Shown here: positions 2,399 through 21,793 of the stretch, piece by piece
Position numbering within the stretch: the stretch's first letter is position 1
Layout: every line of letters starts with the position of its first letter
Source of the DNA: a virus
Strand: one strand, 5' to 3'
Virus record (IMG/VR): IMGVR_UViG_3300000117_000306
Span: 1 to 22,116 of that record
Length of the DNA stretch: 22,116 bases
Position numbers and translations under genes: made by a program
The notes under the pieces: model-generated
The model's input: only the letters and a program-made list of their open reading frames with translations
Database searches by the model: none
What the model was told of the DNA's origin: nothing

Positions 2399-4560
2399 TG
2401 TCTTTGTTTGAAACAGCATCAAAAGGGCTATTTAATTTTGGGGGTCCGATAGGGGTAGCGTCCTCAATTTATAACGTTGGCAAAAAGCTCGGCGATATAT
2501 TTGGCGGGGATCCTGAACCCTATGTGGATAATACATACGATATACAGCAAAACTTAAACACTTTACTGGCCGATCAAAACGGTGAGCCCGAGGGGCGTGA
2601 AGAGTTATTTGTAGATTTAATGAATCGAGCGGGTGAGCTCGGTGCAAATGATATTGCTGATCAAATTGGAAGTTACGGACAGTTTAAACCGTTCTCTGAT
2701 TCTGCGATGGGAACGGTGGCAGGGAATATCTTTAGCGATGCTAGTAACAACAACACAAGACCTGTTGCGGGTACATTGCCAACTGCCCCAACTCAGGCAA
2801 CTCTTCCAACGTTAGATCAACAAACACAAACCATTTACGACAGTGGTGCTACACCGACTGAGGTCGTTAATCAAATTGGTGATTTATATGGTGATGACAC
2901 CGATGGCGCTCGTGATGTTATTTTGCGTGGAGCAAACGATAGAGAGTTAACAGCAGAGCAGATCGCAGATAATTATGATTCTGACGGTGATGGGAACGGC
3001 TTTCCGCTTGATGTTCTTTTCCAAATATTAAGAACAATGCCAGACAATCAAGACGCTGTAGATATTCTTTCACGCAGTCCGATGGGTGGACCACGCGGTG
3101 CATTTGATGCGGATGGGCAAGTCCCTGGCACTGGTTTACCGGGTAGCGGTGATCCCGGCGCTGGTGATGGACTTAATGATGGACCTGAGAATGGACCTGC
3201 AAATGGACCTGGCAATGGACCTGGCAATGGACCTGGTAATGGACCTGGAGTTGATCCTGGGGGTGGTTCTCTTGATGACCCTGTTATCCCTCCTGATGAT
3301 CTTGTAATACCAGAAATACCAGAAATACCAGAAATACCAGAAATACCAGAAATACCGACAGAACAATCAACAACCGGAGGCGGCATGGGTTTTCTCGACG
3401 GAATGTTTAACCAAGAAACAGAAGTTGAAAGAGAGGCAGATCAGCAATTAAGAGGGCGCGCACAAAGTCTTCTTGGTAGTGAAAATGCAAACTCTTCACT
3501 TTTAAATCGATTGAATCAAAGTTATACCCCATATACTGATCCTCGATTTGCACCGCTCAATCAAGATCAAACGGATCTGGGTGCATTGGTTCGTAATAAT
3601 TATCAGAATATACCCGGTAAAGATATTTTCGATGCTGCAAAAAATTATGCGACAGGTATTTCTAATATTAATTTAACTAACCCGACTGCGACTAACGTTG
3701 GGAGTTCTGCCAATACCTTAACAACTGGCGGTCGTCAAAATATCCAAGATTTAGTTGCTGGACAGTTTGCGGGTAGCAACCTTGATCAGTATATAAATCC
3801 ATACAATCGACAAGTAGTTGATACTGCGCTCGGTGATATCGAACGTGCTCGACAAATGCAAAATCTTCAAAATAATAGCGCGGCGACATTGGCTGGTGCT
3901 TATGGTGGGGACAGGGCGGCTCTCGTAAACGCAGAAACTAACCGCGCCGCATTAGACGCAAGTGCTCGTGTAGCTGCTGATTTACGTTCTCGTGGATTTG
4001 ATCAGGCCGCTGCTTTGTATGGTCAGGACGCAGACAGAGCGATGGATGCAGATATAAGGAATCAAGCAGCCGATGCGACAACGGTTCGAGATGGCATGAG
4101 TATTGCGGCACAACTTGCAGCTAACAATCAGCAGCAAGATCGATTAGCACAAAGTCAGACAGCATTAAATCAATTAGCGGCTGGAGATAATTTGTTGCAA
4201 GCATTTGGTCAAGGCACTGATGCTTATCGTGATTACGTTGGTGATTTTGCCGATTTAGGTGAAAGAGATGCTGCACGATCTCAAAGAGAACTTGATTTTG
4301 ACTTTAATCAGTATTTGCAAGGTTACGCTTACGACGATCAGATGATTAATAATCTTTTGAAAATGTTCCAAGTCAGCCCACAAAATCAAAAAGAGATAAC
4401 AAAAGAAGACACGAATTTTAGCGGAGATTTAGATGCGCTCTTGATGCTACCTGGCATGGTTGGTGCTGCTAGGAGTGCGGGAAGCGGTGTTACAGGTATG
4501 ATTGGCGATGGATATAACTATGTAAAAGGTCTTGGCGATCCTAATAAATTATTTGGGTAA
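2398..4560 (+). CDS. Large phage internal virion / ejection-type protein with repeat linker
   Basis: A 720-residue protein. The N-terminal part (to about 250) is acidic and includes an EF-hand or dockerin-like loop, DSDGDGNGFPLD, at about 194-205. The middle is a low-complexity hinge: seven 4-residue NGPG-type repeats followed by five IPE repeats, with one intervening acidic, Pro-rich stretch. The C-terminal part (about 330-720) is helical and Ala/Gln/Asp rich. It contains a segment beginning near residue 464 (YINPYNRQVVDTAL, then DIERARQ, then AGAYGGDRAAL) that recurs in uncharacterised virion proteins of podoviruses and some siphoviruses. No signal peptide. Located right after the nozzle candidate, it is best explained as an internal virion protein ejected with DNA (compare T7 gp14-gp16 by position only). 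The role is inference; the gene itself is certain. Confidence 0.7.
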   Translation: MSLFETASKGLFNFGGPIGVASSIYNVGKKLGDIFGGDPEPYVDNTYDIQQNLNTLLADQNGEPEGREELFVDLMNRAGELGANDIADQIGSYGQFKPFSDSAMGTVAGNIFSDASNNNTRPVAGTLPTAPTQATLPTLDQQTQTIYDSGATPTEVVNQIGDLYGDDTDGARDVILRGANDRELTAEQIADNYDSDGDGNGFPLDVLFQILRTMPDNQDAVDILSRSPMGGPRGAFDADGQVPGTGLPGSGDPGAGDGLNDGPENGPANGPGNGPGNGPGNGPGVDPGGGSLDDPVIPPDDLVIPEIPEIPEIPEIPEIPTEQSTTGGGMGFLDGMFNQETEVEREADQQLRGRAQSLLGSENANSSLLNRLNQSYTPYTDPRFAPLNQDQTDLGALVRNNYQNIPGKDIFDAAKNYATGISNINLTNPTATNVGSSANTLTTGGRQNIQDLVAGQFAGSNLDQYINPYNRQVVDTALGDIERARQMQNLQNNSAATLAGAYGGDRAALVNAETNRAALDASARVAADLRSRGFDQAAALYGQDADRAMDADIRNQAADATTVRDGMSIAAQLAANNQQQDRLAQSQTALNQLAAGDNLLQAFGQGTDAYRDYVGDFADLGERDAARSQRELDFDFNQYLQGYAYDDQMINNLLKMFQVSPQNQKEITKEDTNFSGDLDALLMLPGMVGAARSAGSGVTGMIGDGYNYVKGLGDPNKLFG
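3166..3249 (+). repeat. 12-bp coding tandem repeat (NGPG linker)
   Basis: Seven head-to-tail units of 12 bp with consensus AATGGACCTGGN. The first two units begin GAT and diverge most; the fourth and fifth are identical. In frame they encode DG-x-x and NGPG units inside the hinge of the 720-residue virion protein. The unit is four codons long, so gain or loss of copies keeps the frame. Confidence 0.95.
3307..3360 (+). repeat. 9-bp coding tandem repeat (IPE linker)
   Basis: Five perfect copies of ATACCAGAA (3307-3351) followed by a diverged sixth, ATACCGACA. They encode IPE-IPE-IPE-IPE-IPE-IPT in the same hinge as the NGPG repeat. Perfect identity at the DNA level suggests recent slippage expansion. 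Confidence 0.95.
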
Positions 4561-11541: not shown

Positions 11542-11589
11542 TACACTATCCCGAATTAGCAATTCAAGGATAGTATCGCTTCCACCAAA

Positions 11590-11627
11590 TGTATACAAGC
11601 AGTATTTAATAACATACAAAATGTATG
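11590..11627 (-). promoter_or_regulatory. Repressor-gene promoter with two palindromic operators
   Basis: On the minus strand, -35-like TTGTAT (11619-11614) and -10-like TATACA (11595-11590) are 18 nt apart, about 50 nt upstream of the repressor ATG. The -35 lies inside a perfect palindrome, CATACA-AAA-TGTATG (11613-11627). The -10 lies in TGTATACA (11590-11597). This layout fits negative autoregulation or repression by a neighbouring regulator. Confidence 0.6.
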
Positions 11628-17083: not shown

Positions 17084-17480
17084 AGTTGCTGCTACCGTAG
17101 ATCGAATCATTGACGGTGACTCTATCGAGGTTACGTTATCTTTAGGTTGGTCCATGTATCACAAAACGAGCATACGGTTGCATCATGTAGACACACCGGA
17201 AATGCGTGGTGGTACAGACATCAGTAAGGCGGCTGCAAAGTTAGCGAAAGCGCACGTTGAAAAACTCACCCCGGTGGGCTCAAAGATTGTGATCGACAGT
17301 AAAAAACTCGACAAATTTGGCAGGGGTCTTGCGATTGTCACAAACGCTGATGGTGTAGACGTTGGAGAGGATCTGATCTTGAGAGGGCTTGCAGTGCGAT
17401 ACGACGGCGGTAACAAAGCAGAGGTCGCTGCGGCCCATGAAAAGAATTACGAACTGCTACAGGCCCAAGGCTTGATCTGA
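17073..17480 (+). CDS. Staphylococcal nuclease-like (SNase) phage protein
   Basis: A 135-residue thermonuclease homologue from ATG 17073; the open frame extends upstream only through the lysozyme gene. SNase fold motifs: VDRIIDGDSIEV (9-20), IRLHHVDTPEMRGG with Arg35, Asp40 and Glu43, DKFGRGLAIV with Arg84, and DVGEDLILRGLAVRYDGG. The catalytic Arg/Glu/Arg and the calcium-site Asp are all in place, so it should be active. It has no signal peptide. It sits between endolysin and holin genes, coupled to both by overlaps. It may degrade host DNA at the end of infection or reduce viscosity on lysis; that is inference. Confidence 0.9.
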   Translation: MKYEVAATVDRIIDGDSIEVTLSLGWSMYHKTSIRLHHVDTPEMRGGTDISKAAAKLAKAHVEKLTPVGSKIVIDSKKLDKFGRGLAIVTNADGVDVGEDLILRGLAVRYDGGNKAEVAAAHEKNYELLQAQGLI

Positions 17481-17710
17481 TGGACACCCCGACAAATCGG
17501 ATTTTGAAATCGACCCCGACAAAATGGAATGCCAAATCGACCCCGACAAAACCGACCCCGACAAATGCAAAAAAGCAAAAGGTGCGGGATTTGGAGGCAC
17601 GTATACAAGAATTTATAGCGACCGGGCGAGTGGTTGGAAAGCAACCGCGACAAAAGCCGCGACAAAATCGACCGCGACAAAATGAAACCGGAAAATTAGG
17701 TGAAACTTAA
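17480..17710 (+). CDS. Small basic protein with TPT(K/N) and PRQ repeats
   Basis: A 76-residue, very basic protein; its ATG overlaps the SNase stop (TGATG). N-terminal half has four TPT[KN] units (TPTN, STPTK, STPTKPTPTN). A short amphipathic helix follows (KVRDLEARIQEFIATG), and the C-terminus has three PRQ units (QPRQKPRQNRPRQNE). No signal peptide or lipobox. The repeats come from one DNA motif read in two frames. Another frame over the same DNA is also open (17478-17688) but has no good start. I do not recognise a family; a Rz-type spanin is not supported since there is no TM or lipoprotein signal. Its end overlaps the holin start. Confidence 0.55.
   Translation: MDTPTNRILKSTPTKWNAKSTPTKPTPTNAKKQKVRDLEARIQEFIATGRVVGKQPRQKPRQNRPRQNETGKLGET
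17487..17681 (+). repeat. Seven direct copies of CC(C/G)CGACAAA
   Basis: CCCCGACAAA at 17487, 17514, 17541 and 17556; CCGCGACAAA at 17645, 17657 and 17672. Spacings are 27, 27, 15 and then 12, 15 bp. The first four are in one codon phase and the last three in another, so the DNA word is conserved although it encodes different residues. Confidence 0.9.
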
Positions 17711-18216: not shown

Positions 18217-18411
18217 TTAAATTATATGATCAAAGTATTTTTCTGCTTTTCTCACCACAGAGTCAAGTGGATCTTGTGGTTCCGTTTCGTTTAAAGCGTA
18301 AACGACCGCTTGCGTTTCTGGTAATTGGTCAAAATCCCACCATTTTTGATCATGCCAATCTTTTTTTAAATGTTTTTTGACGTCGCGTACAAATGCTTGT
18401 GTAATTTTCAT
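18217..18411 (-). CDS. Small unknown protein, last gene of leftward accessory operon
   Basis: A 64-residue protein; ATG has GAGAGG 6 nt upstream. It is aromatic- and charge-rich (KKDWHDQKWWDFDQLPETQAV), then ends in a helix (DSVVRKAEKYFDHII). No cysteines, TM segment or signal. No family recognised. It lies 20 nt before the operon terminator and 28 nt after the neighbouring gene on the same strand. Confidence 0.65.
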   Translation of the reverse strand: MKITQAFVRDVKKHLKKDWHDQKWWDFDQLPETQAVVYALNETEPQDPLDSVVRKAEKYFDHII

Positions 18412-18439
18412 AACTTGCCTCTCGGTAAATATTGATTAT

Positions 18440-18742
18440 TTATAATAGATCTCTTATATCCTCTCTAAAACTTATTCTGCAATCACCGAGATCGAGGATA
18501 GTAATTGGATTTCTCATATCGCCTTTTCGCGCTTGGACGTTAGACCAGCCAATATATGGGAATTCACCGAGGGAACCTTTAAATGGTTTATTACATTCGG
18601 CCCATTTACCGCAATTTGATTTGAAATCGTCCAAAGTATCGCGCGTCTCTACGGTTTCATAAACGAAATCACCATATTCAGCGTCGTAGAGTTCAGATTT
18701 TGTTAGGTCATGCAGTTTTTGGAGCGTTGTTTCGTTAATCAT
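18440..18742 (-). CDS. Unknown 100-residue phage accessory protein
   Basis: A 100-residue soluble, acidic protein with a strong ribosome binding site (GGAGG, 7 nt before ATG). N-terminal helix (ETTLQKLHDLTKSELYDAEYG), then a segment with two cysteines (SNCGKWAECNKPF), then a strand-rich end (FPYIGWSNVQ, PITILDLGDCRISF). No known catalytic pattern. Its start overlaps the upstream gene's stop by 4 nt, so the two are coupled. It may fold as a small alpha/beta binding protein; function unknown. Confidence 0.7.
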   Translation of the reverse strand: MINETTLQKLHDLTKSELYDAEYGDFVYETVETRDTLDDFKSNCGKWAECNKPFKGSLGEFPYIGWSNVQARKGDMRNPITILDLGDCRISFREDIRDLL

Positions 18743-18933
18743 GCTTTATCCTCCGTTAACGCAAGTTTAATTAATTTTTCCGCACTTTCCTCGGTGGGTG
18801 CTGAATCTCTCGCTAACGTGGCGCCGACAGAAATTAACGCATAAATTATCATATGTACTGGTTTATCTTGGTGAAGTTCGATTAAATCTAGAACGCTACT
18901 TTTTAATAAAGAATTTATTTCTTGTGTATCCAT
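18739..18933 (-). CDS. Small helical protein of the accessory operon
   Basis: A 64-residue protein from ATG 18933, chosen over a GTG at 18942 because GGGAG lies 9 nt upstream. Two amphipathic helices are visible: INSLLKSSVLDLIELHQDKPVHMIIYALISVGATLARD and ESAEKLIKLALTED. The central part is fairly hydrophobic but interrupted by charges, so a helix bundle is likelier than a membrane helix. No family recognised. Coupled by 4 nt to the next gene. Confidence 0.65.
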   Translation of the reverse strand: MDTQEINSLLKSSVLDLIELHQDKPVHMIIYALISVGATLARDSAPTEESAEKLIKLALTEDKA

Positions 18934-18968
18934 TTTAAACACTCCCGAAAGTGTATTGATTGTATAAG

Positions 18969-19184
18969 TTAACTAGTTACTATTAAACAGTCTTCGACAC
19001 ATAGTTCGGCTAACGCTTTGTAGGCCATCTCTCGGGCGTTTATTTCATCACCTATTGAGAAATACCTTAAAGCCGATTTTGTCATTGTTAGAGCATTATT
19101 ACGCCAAAAATCGCCGCCTTTGTGCATACACGTTGATTTATGCGCAAGGATAATAAGATCTTTTGTGCTGGTTTGATTCATCAT
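18969..19184 (-). CDS. Small unknown helical protein next to the GP88-like gene
   Basis: A 71-residue protein; two adjacent ATG codons (19184, 19181) begin directly beside the stop of the GP88-like gene, with GGTGG upstream. Sequence is helical: TKDLIILAHKSTCMHKGGDFWRNNALTMTKSALRYFSIGDEINAREMAYKALAELCVEDCLI. It resembles one TPR-like helical hairpin in style (alternating A, Y and L positions) but is too short to call. Contains three cysteines. Immediate linkage suggests it works with the GP88-like protein. Confidence 0.6.
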   Translation of the reverse strand: MMNQTSTKDLIILAHKSTCMHKGGDFWRNNALTMTKSALRYFSIGDEINAREMAYKALAELCVEDCLIVTS

Positions 19185-19904
19185 TTACGCCACCATTTTA
19201 AGAGAGATACAATTAGTATTAACGATAAACGGAGCGTCTAAAGGATCTACGCCCTGGCCCTTTGCAATCTTGTATTTAAGGCCAATAATGCAGTTTTTGT
19301 GCTTTAAGTTTTCAATGTCCGAATCGTCGCCGTTTATGACCTTTTTACCCAGGAATACACTAGGCATCGGACCATAGAAAACAACTGAGATGGGAACATT
19401 GGTTTTCTGTGCAAGGCGTACCTGGTCTTGATAATCGGGCGCCCGGCTATACGAAAACATTAACTTATAGTTACTGGGTGTTTTCGTTAATCGTTTCGCA
19501 ATTTTTGTGTAATCGTAGAAATTAATATTAGGGAATAACTGAGGGATTTCGCCGTTGGTTTTGAGTTCCCATTGTATGTCTGAGATAACATTCAATCGAA
19601 CATAGGGAACAACGCCGTTTTTATTGCAAAGCTTTTCAAAGTTTATAAGCTCTTTTGTTAATTGCTTAATAAATCCGGCCCGGTCTTTCATATAATAATT
19701 AAGTTTCCCTTTCCTGGCGTTCTCTACGCTATCGAATGCACCGCGCCCAGAGGCGCGCAAGCAAGGCTTTTTACATTTTGCTTTGTTTCTCATAGGACAA
19801 ACAAGGTCATTCGGATAGAGGGAAAGCCCAGCAACGCGAATGTCGATAGGCTTATTGTTTTTTTTAAGCTTGGTATTCGATCCGTTCGTATCTAATAGTT
19901 TCAT
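19185..19904 (-). CDS. GP88-family phage protein
   Basis: A 239-residue protein from ATG 19904, with GGGG 8 nt upstream and 1 nt after the previous stop; a further ATG at 19928 lacks a ribosome binding site. Features I associate with the GP88 (mycobacteriophage gene product 88-like) family: SLYPNDLVCPMRNKAKC-KKPCL with Cys36, Cys44 and Cys48, then SGRG, RLNVISDIQWE, INFYDYTKIAKRL, YKLMFSYSR, ISVVFYGPMP, VINGDDSDI and IIGLKYK. The biochemical role of the family is, to my knowledge, unknown. The cysteine cluster (C-x7-C-x3-C) could hold a metal or Fe-S cluster but is not the radical-SAM CX3CX2C. The acidic and aromatic motifs suggest a TIM-barrel-like enzyme. Largest gene of the leftward island and its likely functional centre. 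Confidence 0.7.
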   Translation of the reverse strand: MKLLDTNGSNTKLKKNNKPIDIRVAGLSLYPNDLVCPMRNKAKCKKPCLRASGRGAFDSVENARKGKLNYYMKDRAGFIKQLTKELINFEKLCNKNGVVPYVRLNVISDIQWELKTNGEIPQLFPNINFYDYTKIAKRLTKTPSNYKLMFSYSRAPDYQDQVRLAQKTNVPISVVFYGPMPSVFLGKKVINGDDSDIENLKHKNCIIGLKYKIAKGQGVDPLDAPFIVNTNCISLKMVA

Positions 19905-19905
19905 T

Positions 19906-20154
19906 TTAAAGACCCCAGTCGTCGGCATAATCGGAAAGTATTTGCTTAACCTGGATTTCTGTTAGTTGATCCAGATCAACACAAGGCTTATTAGTGCATT
20001 CGGTGGGTGTTTCGCTAAAAAGGCCGCACCCATATTGCTGGAACAATTTGGACGCTTGTTTATAAGAGAGCCCAGCGGGTGCTCCATAATCGTTAGAATC
20101 ATGTAAGCAATCGTTATCCCAGGGTTCGCCGCATATAGAGCATTGAATATCCAT
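19906..20154 (-). CDS. Small Cys-rich (zinc-ribbon-like) phage protein
   Basis: An 82-residue protein from ATG 20154, with GGGAGG 9 nt upstream; an earlier ATG (20184) is inside the previous gene. N-terminal IQCSICGEPWDNDCLHD gives a Cys-x-x-Cys and a third Cys/His as a partial zinc knuckle. Then AGLSYKQASKLFQQYGCGLFSE and TECTNKPC complete the cysteine set. This order (CxxCxEPWD...LHD, then Y..A...F...GCG) recurs in small uncharacterised phage proteins from diverse hosts. It probably binds zinc; the biological role is unknown. It is separated from both neighbours by 1 nt. Confidence 0.7.
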   Translation of the reverse strand: MDIQCSICGEPWDNDCLHDSNDYGAPAGLSYKQASKLFQQYGCGLFSETPTECTNKPCVDLDQLTEIQVKQILSDYADDWGL

Positions 20155-20155
20155 G

Positions 20156-20386
20156 TTATTTGGCCTCCCATGTAACAGCGCCAAACGCTTTGGTTGGATC
20201 GAAGCGATATTTAAGACCAGGGTTTTTTTCTTTAAGGCTTGCGATTACTTGCTTCGCGCCCATTTGGCTTGTGTAGGCCGTTGGGAGGATATTGGTATCA
20301 AATATCTCTCTTATTGCTGGGTCGCTGTGGTGCGCCATCCAAGTATCACCCTTGATAAAGATTGAAACTGTGTGTTGTTTAGCCAT
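20156..20386 (-). CDS. Small unknown protein, first gene of leftward accessory operon
   Basis: A 76-residue soluble protein; ATG 20386 has AGAGG 8 nt upstream. It begins with a strand (HTVSIFIKGDTWMAHHSDPAIREIF), then a helix (SQMGAKQVIASLKEKNPGLKYRF) and a last strand (FGAVTWEAK). This alpha/beta pattern looks like a small binding domain; no catalytic motif. First gene after the operator-rich promoter region, so it should be the most strongly expressed of the operon. Confidence 0.65.
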   Translation of the reverse strand: MAKQHTVSIFIKGDTWMAHHSDPAIREIFDTNILPTAYTSQMGAKQVIASLKEKNPGLKYRFDPTKAFGAVTWEAK

Positions 20387-20457
20387 TATTACGTCCTCTT
20401 TTTAATTGATGTATACATATTATATACATAAAACATAGGAAGTATACAAATAGTATA
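20387..20457. promoter_or_regulatory. Divergent promoter and operator region of the accessory island
   Basis: A 70-bp AT-rich region between divergent genes. The minus strand has a perfect -10, TATAAT (20424-20419), with TTGTAT as a possible but distant -35. Palindromes: ATGTATACAT (20409-20418), TGTATA-N7-TATACA (20410-20428) and TATAC-AAATA-GTATA (20443-20457). The last resembles the site beside the repressor promoter at 11591-11606. A shared regulator is possible. Confidence 0.6.
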
Positions 20458-20627
20458 TGATAAATACAGAAAGAGACGAAATAATTGCTAAACAGTATGA
20501 AATGTCAGGTGGTTGGGTCGCGTTCCCAATTGATGGGTATTGCCGCTGCGGTAAAGATTTACTGTTACAAGATACTGAGAAGCTTATAACCGGGTGTAGT
20601 GATTGTAATAAAAGCTTTTGTGAGTAA
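20457..20627 (+). CDS. Very small four-cysteine (zinc-ribbon-like) protein
   Basis: A 56-residue frame: ATG 20457, TAA 20625-20627. N-terminus helical and charged (TERDEIIAKQYE); then GYCRCGKDLL (Cys29, Cys31) and TGCSDCNKSFCE (Cys47, Cys50 plus a last Cys) form a probable zinc ribbon. AGGA at 20437 is rather far from the ATG, so the start is uncertain; an internal ATG at 20502 keeps all cysteines. Its stop overlaps the start of another zinc-ribbon gene, which supports both as real. Function unknown. Confidence 0.5.
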   Translation: MINTERDEIIAKQYEMSGGWVAFPIDGYCRCGKDLLLQDTEKLITGCSDCNKSFCE

Positions 20628-20835
20628 AAAGATAGTTGTTGAAATACTAACGCCAGTTTACCAAGGCGAATCTGCTTTTATCATTAACGCTGCACAATGC
20701 CCGAGTTGCGGCGAGAGAGAGCATTATATCCATAGAGTAGTAGAGGAATATAAAGATAGCCTAGAAGCAGAGCTCGAATGTATGAACTGTGAACAGCGCT
20801 TCACTTTGTATGCTAGAAGCGGGGTAGTGCATTGA
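20620..20835 (+). CDS. Small zinc-ribbon protein
   Basis: A 71-residue protein. GTG 20620 overlaps the previous stop by 8 nt; another GTG at 20599 in the same frame is possible. Motif CPSCGEREHYIHRVVEEYKDSLEAELECMNC is a classical two-knuckle zinc ribbon (CxxC - x(n) - CxxC) with antiparallel strands, followed by EQRFTLYARSG. Such ribbons are found in phage DNA- or RNA-polymerase-binding proteins, but the partner here cannot be told. Forms a pair with the gene before it. Confidence 0.6.
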   Translation: MSKKIVVEILTPVYQGESAFIINAAQCPSCGEREHYIHRVVEEYKDSLEAELECMNCEQRFTLYARSGVVH

Positions 20836-21121: not shown

Positions 21122-21793
21122 ATGCATCCAGAACTTCGCCGCTGCGCTGAACTCTCTCTCGAGGCTTATTCCGATATGCCAGGAAGACTCGCTCAAAAAT
21201 TTGAAAATAAATTTACCAGTGCTGAGTTCTTTGTGATCGACGCGGATAAGGTTTACCTGGTTCATAAGGGGACTATGGAGAGGCGTGACATTCTAATTGA
21301 TTTACTAGCCTTCCCGGTGAGGTATTTAAGGACATGGGTACACGGTGGCTTTGCTCTTCAACATAAGTCTGTCCAAAAAAAATTGCGAAAAATTTTCGAG
21401 AGAGTGAAGGACAGTGGTAAGCCCTTAATTATCACCGGGCATAGTTTAGGAGCAGCGCAAGCCAGTTTAAGTATGTTAATGGCCCAGCAGATGGGTATCT
21501 CTGCCACGTTAGTGTGCTTTGGTAAGCCTAGAGTCTATTTGAAGAAGAAGCGCTCAAGGTTCCCTAAAGGCTCTGTGTTGAGTGTGTGTAGTGGCTCAGA
21601 CATCGTGACAAGACTCCCACGTTTTCTGTACACGGTCGGCTGTCAGGACCAAGATTTTCTCTATTTAGCCAATGATAATAATAACTACCTAAACCCGAAG
21701 CCTGAGTTTGTTGAATCTGATTTCTCGATAAAGGACGCGGTGTCCGACCATTCTATGGAGCTCTACCTCCAACGTGCTTTGGAAGTCGTTTGA
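21122..21793 (+). CDS. Class 3 lipase-like alpha/beta hydrolase
   Basis: A 223-residue cytosolic-type hydrolase with no signal peptide. Class 3 (Mbeg1/TGL-like) layout: VYLVHKGT (44-51) for the oxyanion strand, WVHGGF (72-77), the nucleophile elbow ITGHSLGAAQA with Ser108, FGKPRV (133-138), Asp160 in SGSDIVTRLP and His210 in SDHSMELY. The Ser-Asp-His triad is complete. Such enzymes cleave lipid esters; here the substrate could be host phospholipid, a host storage lipid or a surface ester. It stands alone behind a Fur-box region. It overlaps the methyltransferase start by 4 nt. Ribosome binding site is weak (AGAG). Lipase family is firm; role in the phage is open. Confidence 0.85.
   Translation: MHPELRRCAELSLEAYSDMPGRLAQKFENKFTSAEFFVIDADKVYLVHKGTMERRDILIDLLAFPVRYLRTWVHGGFALQHKSVQKKLRKIFERVKDSGKPLIITGHSLGAAQASLSMLMAQQMGISATLVCFGKPRVYLKKKRSRFPKGSVLSVCSGSDIVTRLPRFLYTVGCQDQDFLYLANDNNNYLNPKPEFVESDFSIKDAVSDHSMELYLQRALEVV

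Follow-up and report, generated by a model that had tools for sequence, protein, structure and literature searches.

A GP88-family protein, possibly a radical-SAM-like modifying enzyme, in a small accessory operon of a marine phage

GP88 (PF17338; phrog_1617) is a family of phage proteins that has no function in the libraries and papers searched, as a sequence-only reading of the DNA studied here had noted, and neither its Pfam number nor its name led to any paper on it in the open library; in a mycobacteriophage growth-inhibition screen (PMC11797047), "gp88" is the number of a cluster K gene. Its closest described relatives are the DUF5131 proteins (PF07505, Gp37/Gp68), whose members match most of the NCBI model named "radical SAM mobile pair protein A" (TIGR04471) with E values of up to 3e-25, the "radical SAM" label of TIGR04471 being itself an annotation. 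In its predicted fold GP88 can be set beside radical SAM enzymes such as QueE, viperin, RlmN and SkfB and, through a single relative, beside the polyvalent proteins of phages, in which a single polypeptide combines at least two conflict domains. The InPase domain PF18823 is described as exclusive to the phage-type polyvalent proteins, which are probably delivered by injection and counteract the host (PMC5512222); that account of polyvalent proteins mentions neither GP88 nor radical SAM.

The DNA analysed here (the window) is the 22,116-base virus record IMGVR_UViG_3300000117_000306, from a marine phage. The phage is probably temperate because it carries, together with an integrase gene recognized by a weak Pfam match under the cut-off, genes for YqaJ and ERF recombination proteins, a DnaB-type helicase, NinG and a lysozyme. 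The seven ORFs previously read as a leftward island were all confirmed, and they run opposite to their surroundings, being flanked by lysozyme/nuclease/holin-like genes and by a lipase gene. In the direction of transcription, all on the minus strand, they are orfF (20386-20156, 76 amino acids), orfE (20154-19906, 82 amino acids), the GP88 gene (19904-19185, 239 amino acids), orfD (19184-18969, 71 amino acids), orfC (18933-18739, 64 amino acids, with a possible alternative upstream GTG start at 18942), orfB (18742-18440, 100 amino acids) and orfA (18411-18217, 64 amino acids). The close spacing proposed for them was borne out by gaps of 1, 1, 0, 35, -4 and 28 nt from orfF to orfA. A good ribosome binding site had been assigned to every gene, which holds for the others but not for GP88 and orfD, whose sites are weak; since each of these two genes abuts the preceding one, translational coupling is likely. 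When the island was compared with the relative contig L018 (IMGVR 3300025137_000656), pN/pS values of 0.26 (orfF), 0.07 (orfE), 0.06 (GP88), 0.13 (orfD), 0.17 (orfC), 0.08 (orfB) and 0.14 (orfA) were obtained, which indicates purifying selection on all seven, and the neighboring lysis-region genes gave comparable values. Because synonymous change is in excess in each of them, the seven ORFs are genes rather than chance ORFs.

The island had also been credited with a terminator and a palindrome-rich promoter of its own, and both were located. An intrinsic terminator with a stem at 18193-18172 (minus strand) was found by scanning at the end of the island, and its stem is kept in L018 with an altered loop. 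The promoter region (20409-20449, minus strand) lies before orfF and contains a TATAAT box (20424-20419), the perfect palindrome ATGTATACAT at the expected transcription start (20418-20409) and the sequence TTGTATACTT (20449-20440); it is nearly identical in L018, and a consensus scan scored no full sigma-70 promoter at the island start. The motif TTGTATACWT is common to this region and to the upstream region of a repressor-like gene (11589-11598), and nine matches with at most one mismatch were counted against 3.07 expected, a number reached in none of 100 shuffles, for a motif that was chosen post hoc. Its presence at both sites suggests that TTGTATACWT is a possible operator and that the island may be controlled by the phage repressor. 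These features, together with the opposite strand, would also fit a prophage moron-like unit that the lysogen would express and the phage repressor would control. We regard such a unit as doubtful, since the motif was picked after the fact, an operator common to both sites should instead keep the island repressed in a lysogen, and the relatives in isolated phages sit among early lytic genes.

A joint function had been suggested for the seven genes, and the distribution of the small ones speaks against it. Apart from the window, the IMG/VR scans detected orfA, orfB, orfC, orfD and orfF in just two contigs, L017 and L018, which belong to the window's phage species, one of them identical to the window across the island and the other encoding proteins 89-94% identical, with orfF at 75% identity and carrying an insertion in the more divergent contig; no relatives of these five genes outside the species were detected in the IMG/VR scans, at the GP88 loci or in isolated phages. 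None of the six small proteins, each searched singly against 50,697 phage records, gave a match, and the island DNA showed no similarity to sequenced phages. The contig L003, whose GP88 is 77% identical and whose lipase, p56, holin-like and lysozyme genes are related to those of the window, has GP88 at the equivalent position and in the opposite orientation, with different small genes alongside. The island is thus a slot whose small genes vary while GP88 is retained. The defence models of PADLOC 2023 (E up to 0.1) matched no island protein, and no defence or toxin-antitoxin identity was obtained for any of them from PADLOC, Pfam or PHROGs. It is therefore very improbable that the seven genes make up one co-adapted defence, anti-defence or toxin-antitoxin system, in spite of their arrangement in a tight operon with a common promoter and terminator, the purifying selection on every gene and the recurrence of orfE relatives beside GP88. 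A conserved seven-gene system was rejected because five of the small genes are species-specific, and these five probably travel in the operon as unrelated early genes.

With regard to whether the same small genes accompany GP88 in other phages, relatives of orfE do recur, whereas the other five genes do not. The orfE product, a CxxC-GEPW-LH protein, belongs to a family with the pattern MDI-C-x2-CGEPW-x4-LH followed by GC and is probably metal-binding. The profile of this family (MDI-C-x2-CGEPW-LH) found at least 80 viral loci, 78 of them outside the species of the window. Among the matches listed, and leaving the window species out, 21 of the 78 loci have GP88 downstream of the orfE relative and in its orientation, at a distance of mostly 0.1-0.5 kb and at most 1.7 kb; this frequency and those given below for GP88 neighbors, obtained from IMG/VR, describe the samples and not all loci. 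The pairs occur in marine phages and involve two to three GP88 groups, and orfE relatives are found beside two further GP88 groups. The linkage between orfE and GP88 is real and limited to part of both families, and for some of the family orfE may have a helper role.

The identity of the central protein, proposed to be of the GP88 family and to be accompanied by six small proteins, was confirmed by its match to PF17338 (E 3e-31, 109.4 bits against a curated cut-off of 24.4), and it also matched phrog_1617 (E 5e-45); the three cysteines, RLNxxSD and DYTK are common to the window protein and to this family, from which no sequence difference separates it. The C-x7-C-x3-C cluster seen earlier in the window protein is correct and corresponds to Cys36, Cys44 and Cys48. 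Throughout the family the pattern C-x(5-7)-C-x3-C is invariant, being present in all 208 copies with a complete N terminus, always with x3 as the second spacer, and in the 12 isolated phages checked, mycobacteriophages included. RLNxxSD was found in 208 and DYTK in 207 of 210 loci, and these motifs correspond to R103-L-N-x-x-S-D109 and D131-Y-T-K134 in the window protein; R103, N105, S108, D109, D131, Y132, K134 and D196 are invariant or nearly so across very divergent phages. GP88 is as widespread in phages as had been proposed: it is carried by Pelagibacter phages, by over 200 of the sequenced mycobacteriophages and by viral contigs that number well above 500, and it is found almost only in phages. 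Two relatives, L112 (6329-8059) and L113 (2904-4490), hold the GP88 domain within long ORFs of 577 and 529 residues, whose N-terminal parts of about 230 residues match no Pfam family. A contig from the genome of an uncultured archaeon (G008:C68; genome of L104) carries GP88 together with a DUF5131-like gene at a distance of about 6 kb.

Profile searches connected GP88 with DUF5131 in both directions. The PF17338 profile matched 9 of 17 DUF5131 proteins (best E 2e-7), and in whole-genome searches its matches coincided with the sites of the DUF5131 profile, two of them over the curated cut-off; in the reverse search, the DUF5131 profile matched GP88s at 4e-5. An earlier comparison of the two profiles, built with 74 GP88s, was weak (P 0.01), and the one made with a broader alignment placed RLNxxSD and TK of GP88 on NSMSDLF and TKR of DUF5131 (P 0.0007). 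The two families thus resemble each other in their reciprocal matches, in the aligned SD and TK motifs and in a three-cysteine N-terminal loop, although DUF5131, which was detected in 16 of 142 genomes sampled from one class, differs from GP88 in spacing its cysteines as GC-x6-C-x2-C and in having a long C-terminal portion that contains GGESG. Judged from these profile data, GP88 and DUF5131 are homologous at the superfamily level; the window protein gave no match to PF07505 and stands as a related family rather than as a member. GP88 showed no direct match to TIGR04471, to which it is linked at one remove, via DUF5131. Searches with the Radical_SAM profile PF04055 gave no match to the window protein (E up to 1) nor to 74 relatives (E up to 0.1), and in direct profile comparisons with PF04055 members neither GP88 (P 0.06) nor DUF5131 was significant. 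The canonical CX3CX2C is absent from GP88, which has C-x(5-7)-C-x3-C instead. On account of this cysteine spacing and the lack of a Radical_SAM match, we describe GP88 as radical-SAM-like but do not count it among the canonical members.

There are no sequence relatives of GP88 in the PDB, and AlphaFold2 models were built for the window protein (pLDDT 93.0) and for the divergent GP88 of L305 (pLDDT 93.4) from alignments of 74 and 67 relatives, different but overlapping sets; both are predicted to form a partial TIM barrel. A Foldseek search of the PDB with the GP88 model gave no significant match and returned only generic TIM barrels, and a search of viral models returned GP88 homologues. When the Foldseek candidates were ranked by a second alignment (VIA), the top 15 rows for the window model were all radical SAM enzymes (Z 4.6-6.4), among them SkfB, viperin-like enzymes, QueE, RlmN, TYW1, LIAS and MiaB, and so were the top 13 rows for the L305 model (QueE, viperin, ChlB, RlmN and TYW1; Z 4.4-5.8). 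In both cases the radical SAM chains cover most of GP88 and rank above glycosidases and other TIM barrels, with an identity to GP88 of just 6-14%. Scores of 4.4-6.4, below 8, lie in the range where common TIM-barrel arrangements can also score, so that the fold evidence alone does not settle the assignment; the profile evidence is separate from it. The GP88 cysteines are predicted to come after strand 1, as does the cluster loop of radical SAM enzymes, and GP88 would share with QueE, viperin, RlmN and SkfB both the partial barrel and the place of this loop, but not their canonical or well-defined SAM motifs.

The same data bear on whether GP88 has kept any chemistry. It could be a binder of a host target derived from a radical SAM or another TIM-barrel-like protein, its cysteines forming a structural zinc knot. 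Small phage proteins often contain zinc knots, and the non-canonical spacing, a strand 2 that carries RLNxxSD and no GGE-type SAM motif, and the lack of a PF04055 match would all agree with such a protein. Nevertheless, we consider this binder rather unlikely, because the (near-)invariant residues listed above look like those of an active site and the structures nearest to the GP88 models are all active radical SAM enzymes. The main alternative role for GP88, somewhat less doubtful than the binder though still on the unlikely side, is that of a metabolic or nucleotide- or DNA-modifying enzyme (QueE-, viperin- or SplB-like) that would serve phage replication or genome protection rather than an attack on the host. 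In its favor, QueE and viperin-like enzymes are the top fold neighbors, and DNA methyltransferase genes adjoin GP88 in 5 of 80 groups and lie near it in Sansa, Eagle and Nyxis; however, methyltransferases are common in phages, and queuosine-type or other nucleotide pathway genes are not consistently found alongside GP88.

The position of GP88 in isolated phages points to a function at the start of infection. Repeatedly it takes the first or second place among the genes at the early end: it is gp02 of Lo5R7ANS and gp2 of CRP-143 in Autographiviridae and gp01 in HMO-2011, in several Pelagibacter phages no more than about 1.6 kb separates it from the left end, and in CRP-235 (gp61) and mycobacteriophages it is about 2 kb from the right end and heads a leftward block (Eagle gp86, Nyxis gp86). 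We take these ends to be the early regions, first expressed, and the early placement is read from gene position. GP88 is located mid-genome in DC31, Sansa and HTVC023P, and the island of the window, between the lysis genes and the lipase gene, is no obvious early operon. The finding of GP88 among the first genes of unrelated phages suggests a task needed at once after infection. As to its neighbors, none is universal, but besides the orfE relatives two kinds of genes recur on the same strand within 3 kb: DUF932 genes, at 33 of 210 sampled loci (31 of them co-oriented with GP88) but at just 1 of 57 control loci, and L5-gp82-like genes, at 12 of the 210 (all co-oriented) and 0 of the 57 controls, which are viral loci picked by another gene and not a random draw. 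The refuting condition set in the sequence-only reading, GP88 homologues lacking conserved neighbors, thus has a mixed outcome. The L5-gp82-like neighbors are common to marine phages, HMO-2011 and mycobacteriophages.

A further connection was found in the jumbo Tunturiibacter phage Tunturi_5 (L344; 2311-3648), where GP88 is fused to a PF18823 InPase in a 445-amino-acid protein and thus carries the domain typical of phage polyvalent proteins (PMC5512222). The window protein is single-domain, and the Tunturi_5 relative is the only one that qualifies as polyvalent. The fusion protein is annotated as "minor head protein", which is probably wrong.

The early-end position, the fusion to a polyvalent-protein domain and the recurrent neighbors together favor a modifying enzyme acting at the start of infection. 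The sequence-only reading had seen in the island the best candidate in the window for an undescribed system, for example in host takeover, defence or anti-defence; the early position and the Tunturi_5 fusion fit takeover or counter-defence, and the seven-gene system is the part that does not stand. We consider it somewhat more probable than the contrary that the island is an accessory operon whose core, GP88, is an early radical-SAM-like modifying enzyme for takeover or counter-defence. According to this proposal, the island would serve its temperate marine phage as a small accessory operon with GP88 as the functional core, and GP88 would be a phage-specialized member of a DUF5131-like branch of the radical-SAM-like superfamily. 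An iron-sulphur cluster would probably be held by its three cysteines, which belong to the loop that follows barrel strand 1, and early in infection the protein would probably act on a molecule of the host or the phage, modifying it with the use of S-adenosylmethionine; this might aid takeover or blunt defence. More broadly, and only tentatively, GP88 could represent a widespread, previously unrecognized class of phage radical SAM proteins with the atypical C-x(5-7)-C-x3-C, made at the start of infection to rewrite a host component or a defence molecule and, in some jumbo phages, possibly injected within a polyvalent protein. The placement by DUF5131 and by the radical SAM fold gives GP88 a concrete, testable chemistry, and the family is present in phages of Pelagibacter, which is among the most abundant bacteria of the sea. 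Since model systems exist (gp86 of mycobacteriophage Eagle in M. smegmatis), the question can be tested directly.

Several other features of the window were observed. The lipase gene that adjoins the island (21122-21793, plus strand) encodes a class 3 lipase (PF01764, E 5e-15), an unusual cargo for a phage, and L003 also carries a relative of it. Beside the island, on the other strand, a small zinc-ribbon-like protein (20599-20835, plus strand) shows weak similarity to phrog_6504 and to the family of the restriction alleviation protein Lar (PF14354, E 0.01, under the cut-off). A 720-amino-acid ORF contains repeats at 3179-3356, namely GPGNGPGN-type and PEIPEIPEI runs with units of 12 and 9 bp, and a 76-amino-acid ORF at 17480-17710 (plus strand), whose length differs in L018, consists mostly of imperfect tandem repeats of CGACCCCGACAAA-type units, TPTK in the protein.
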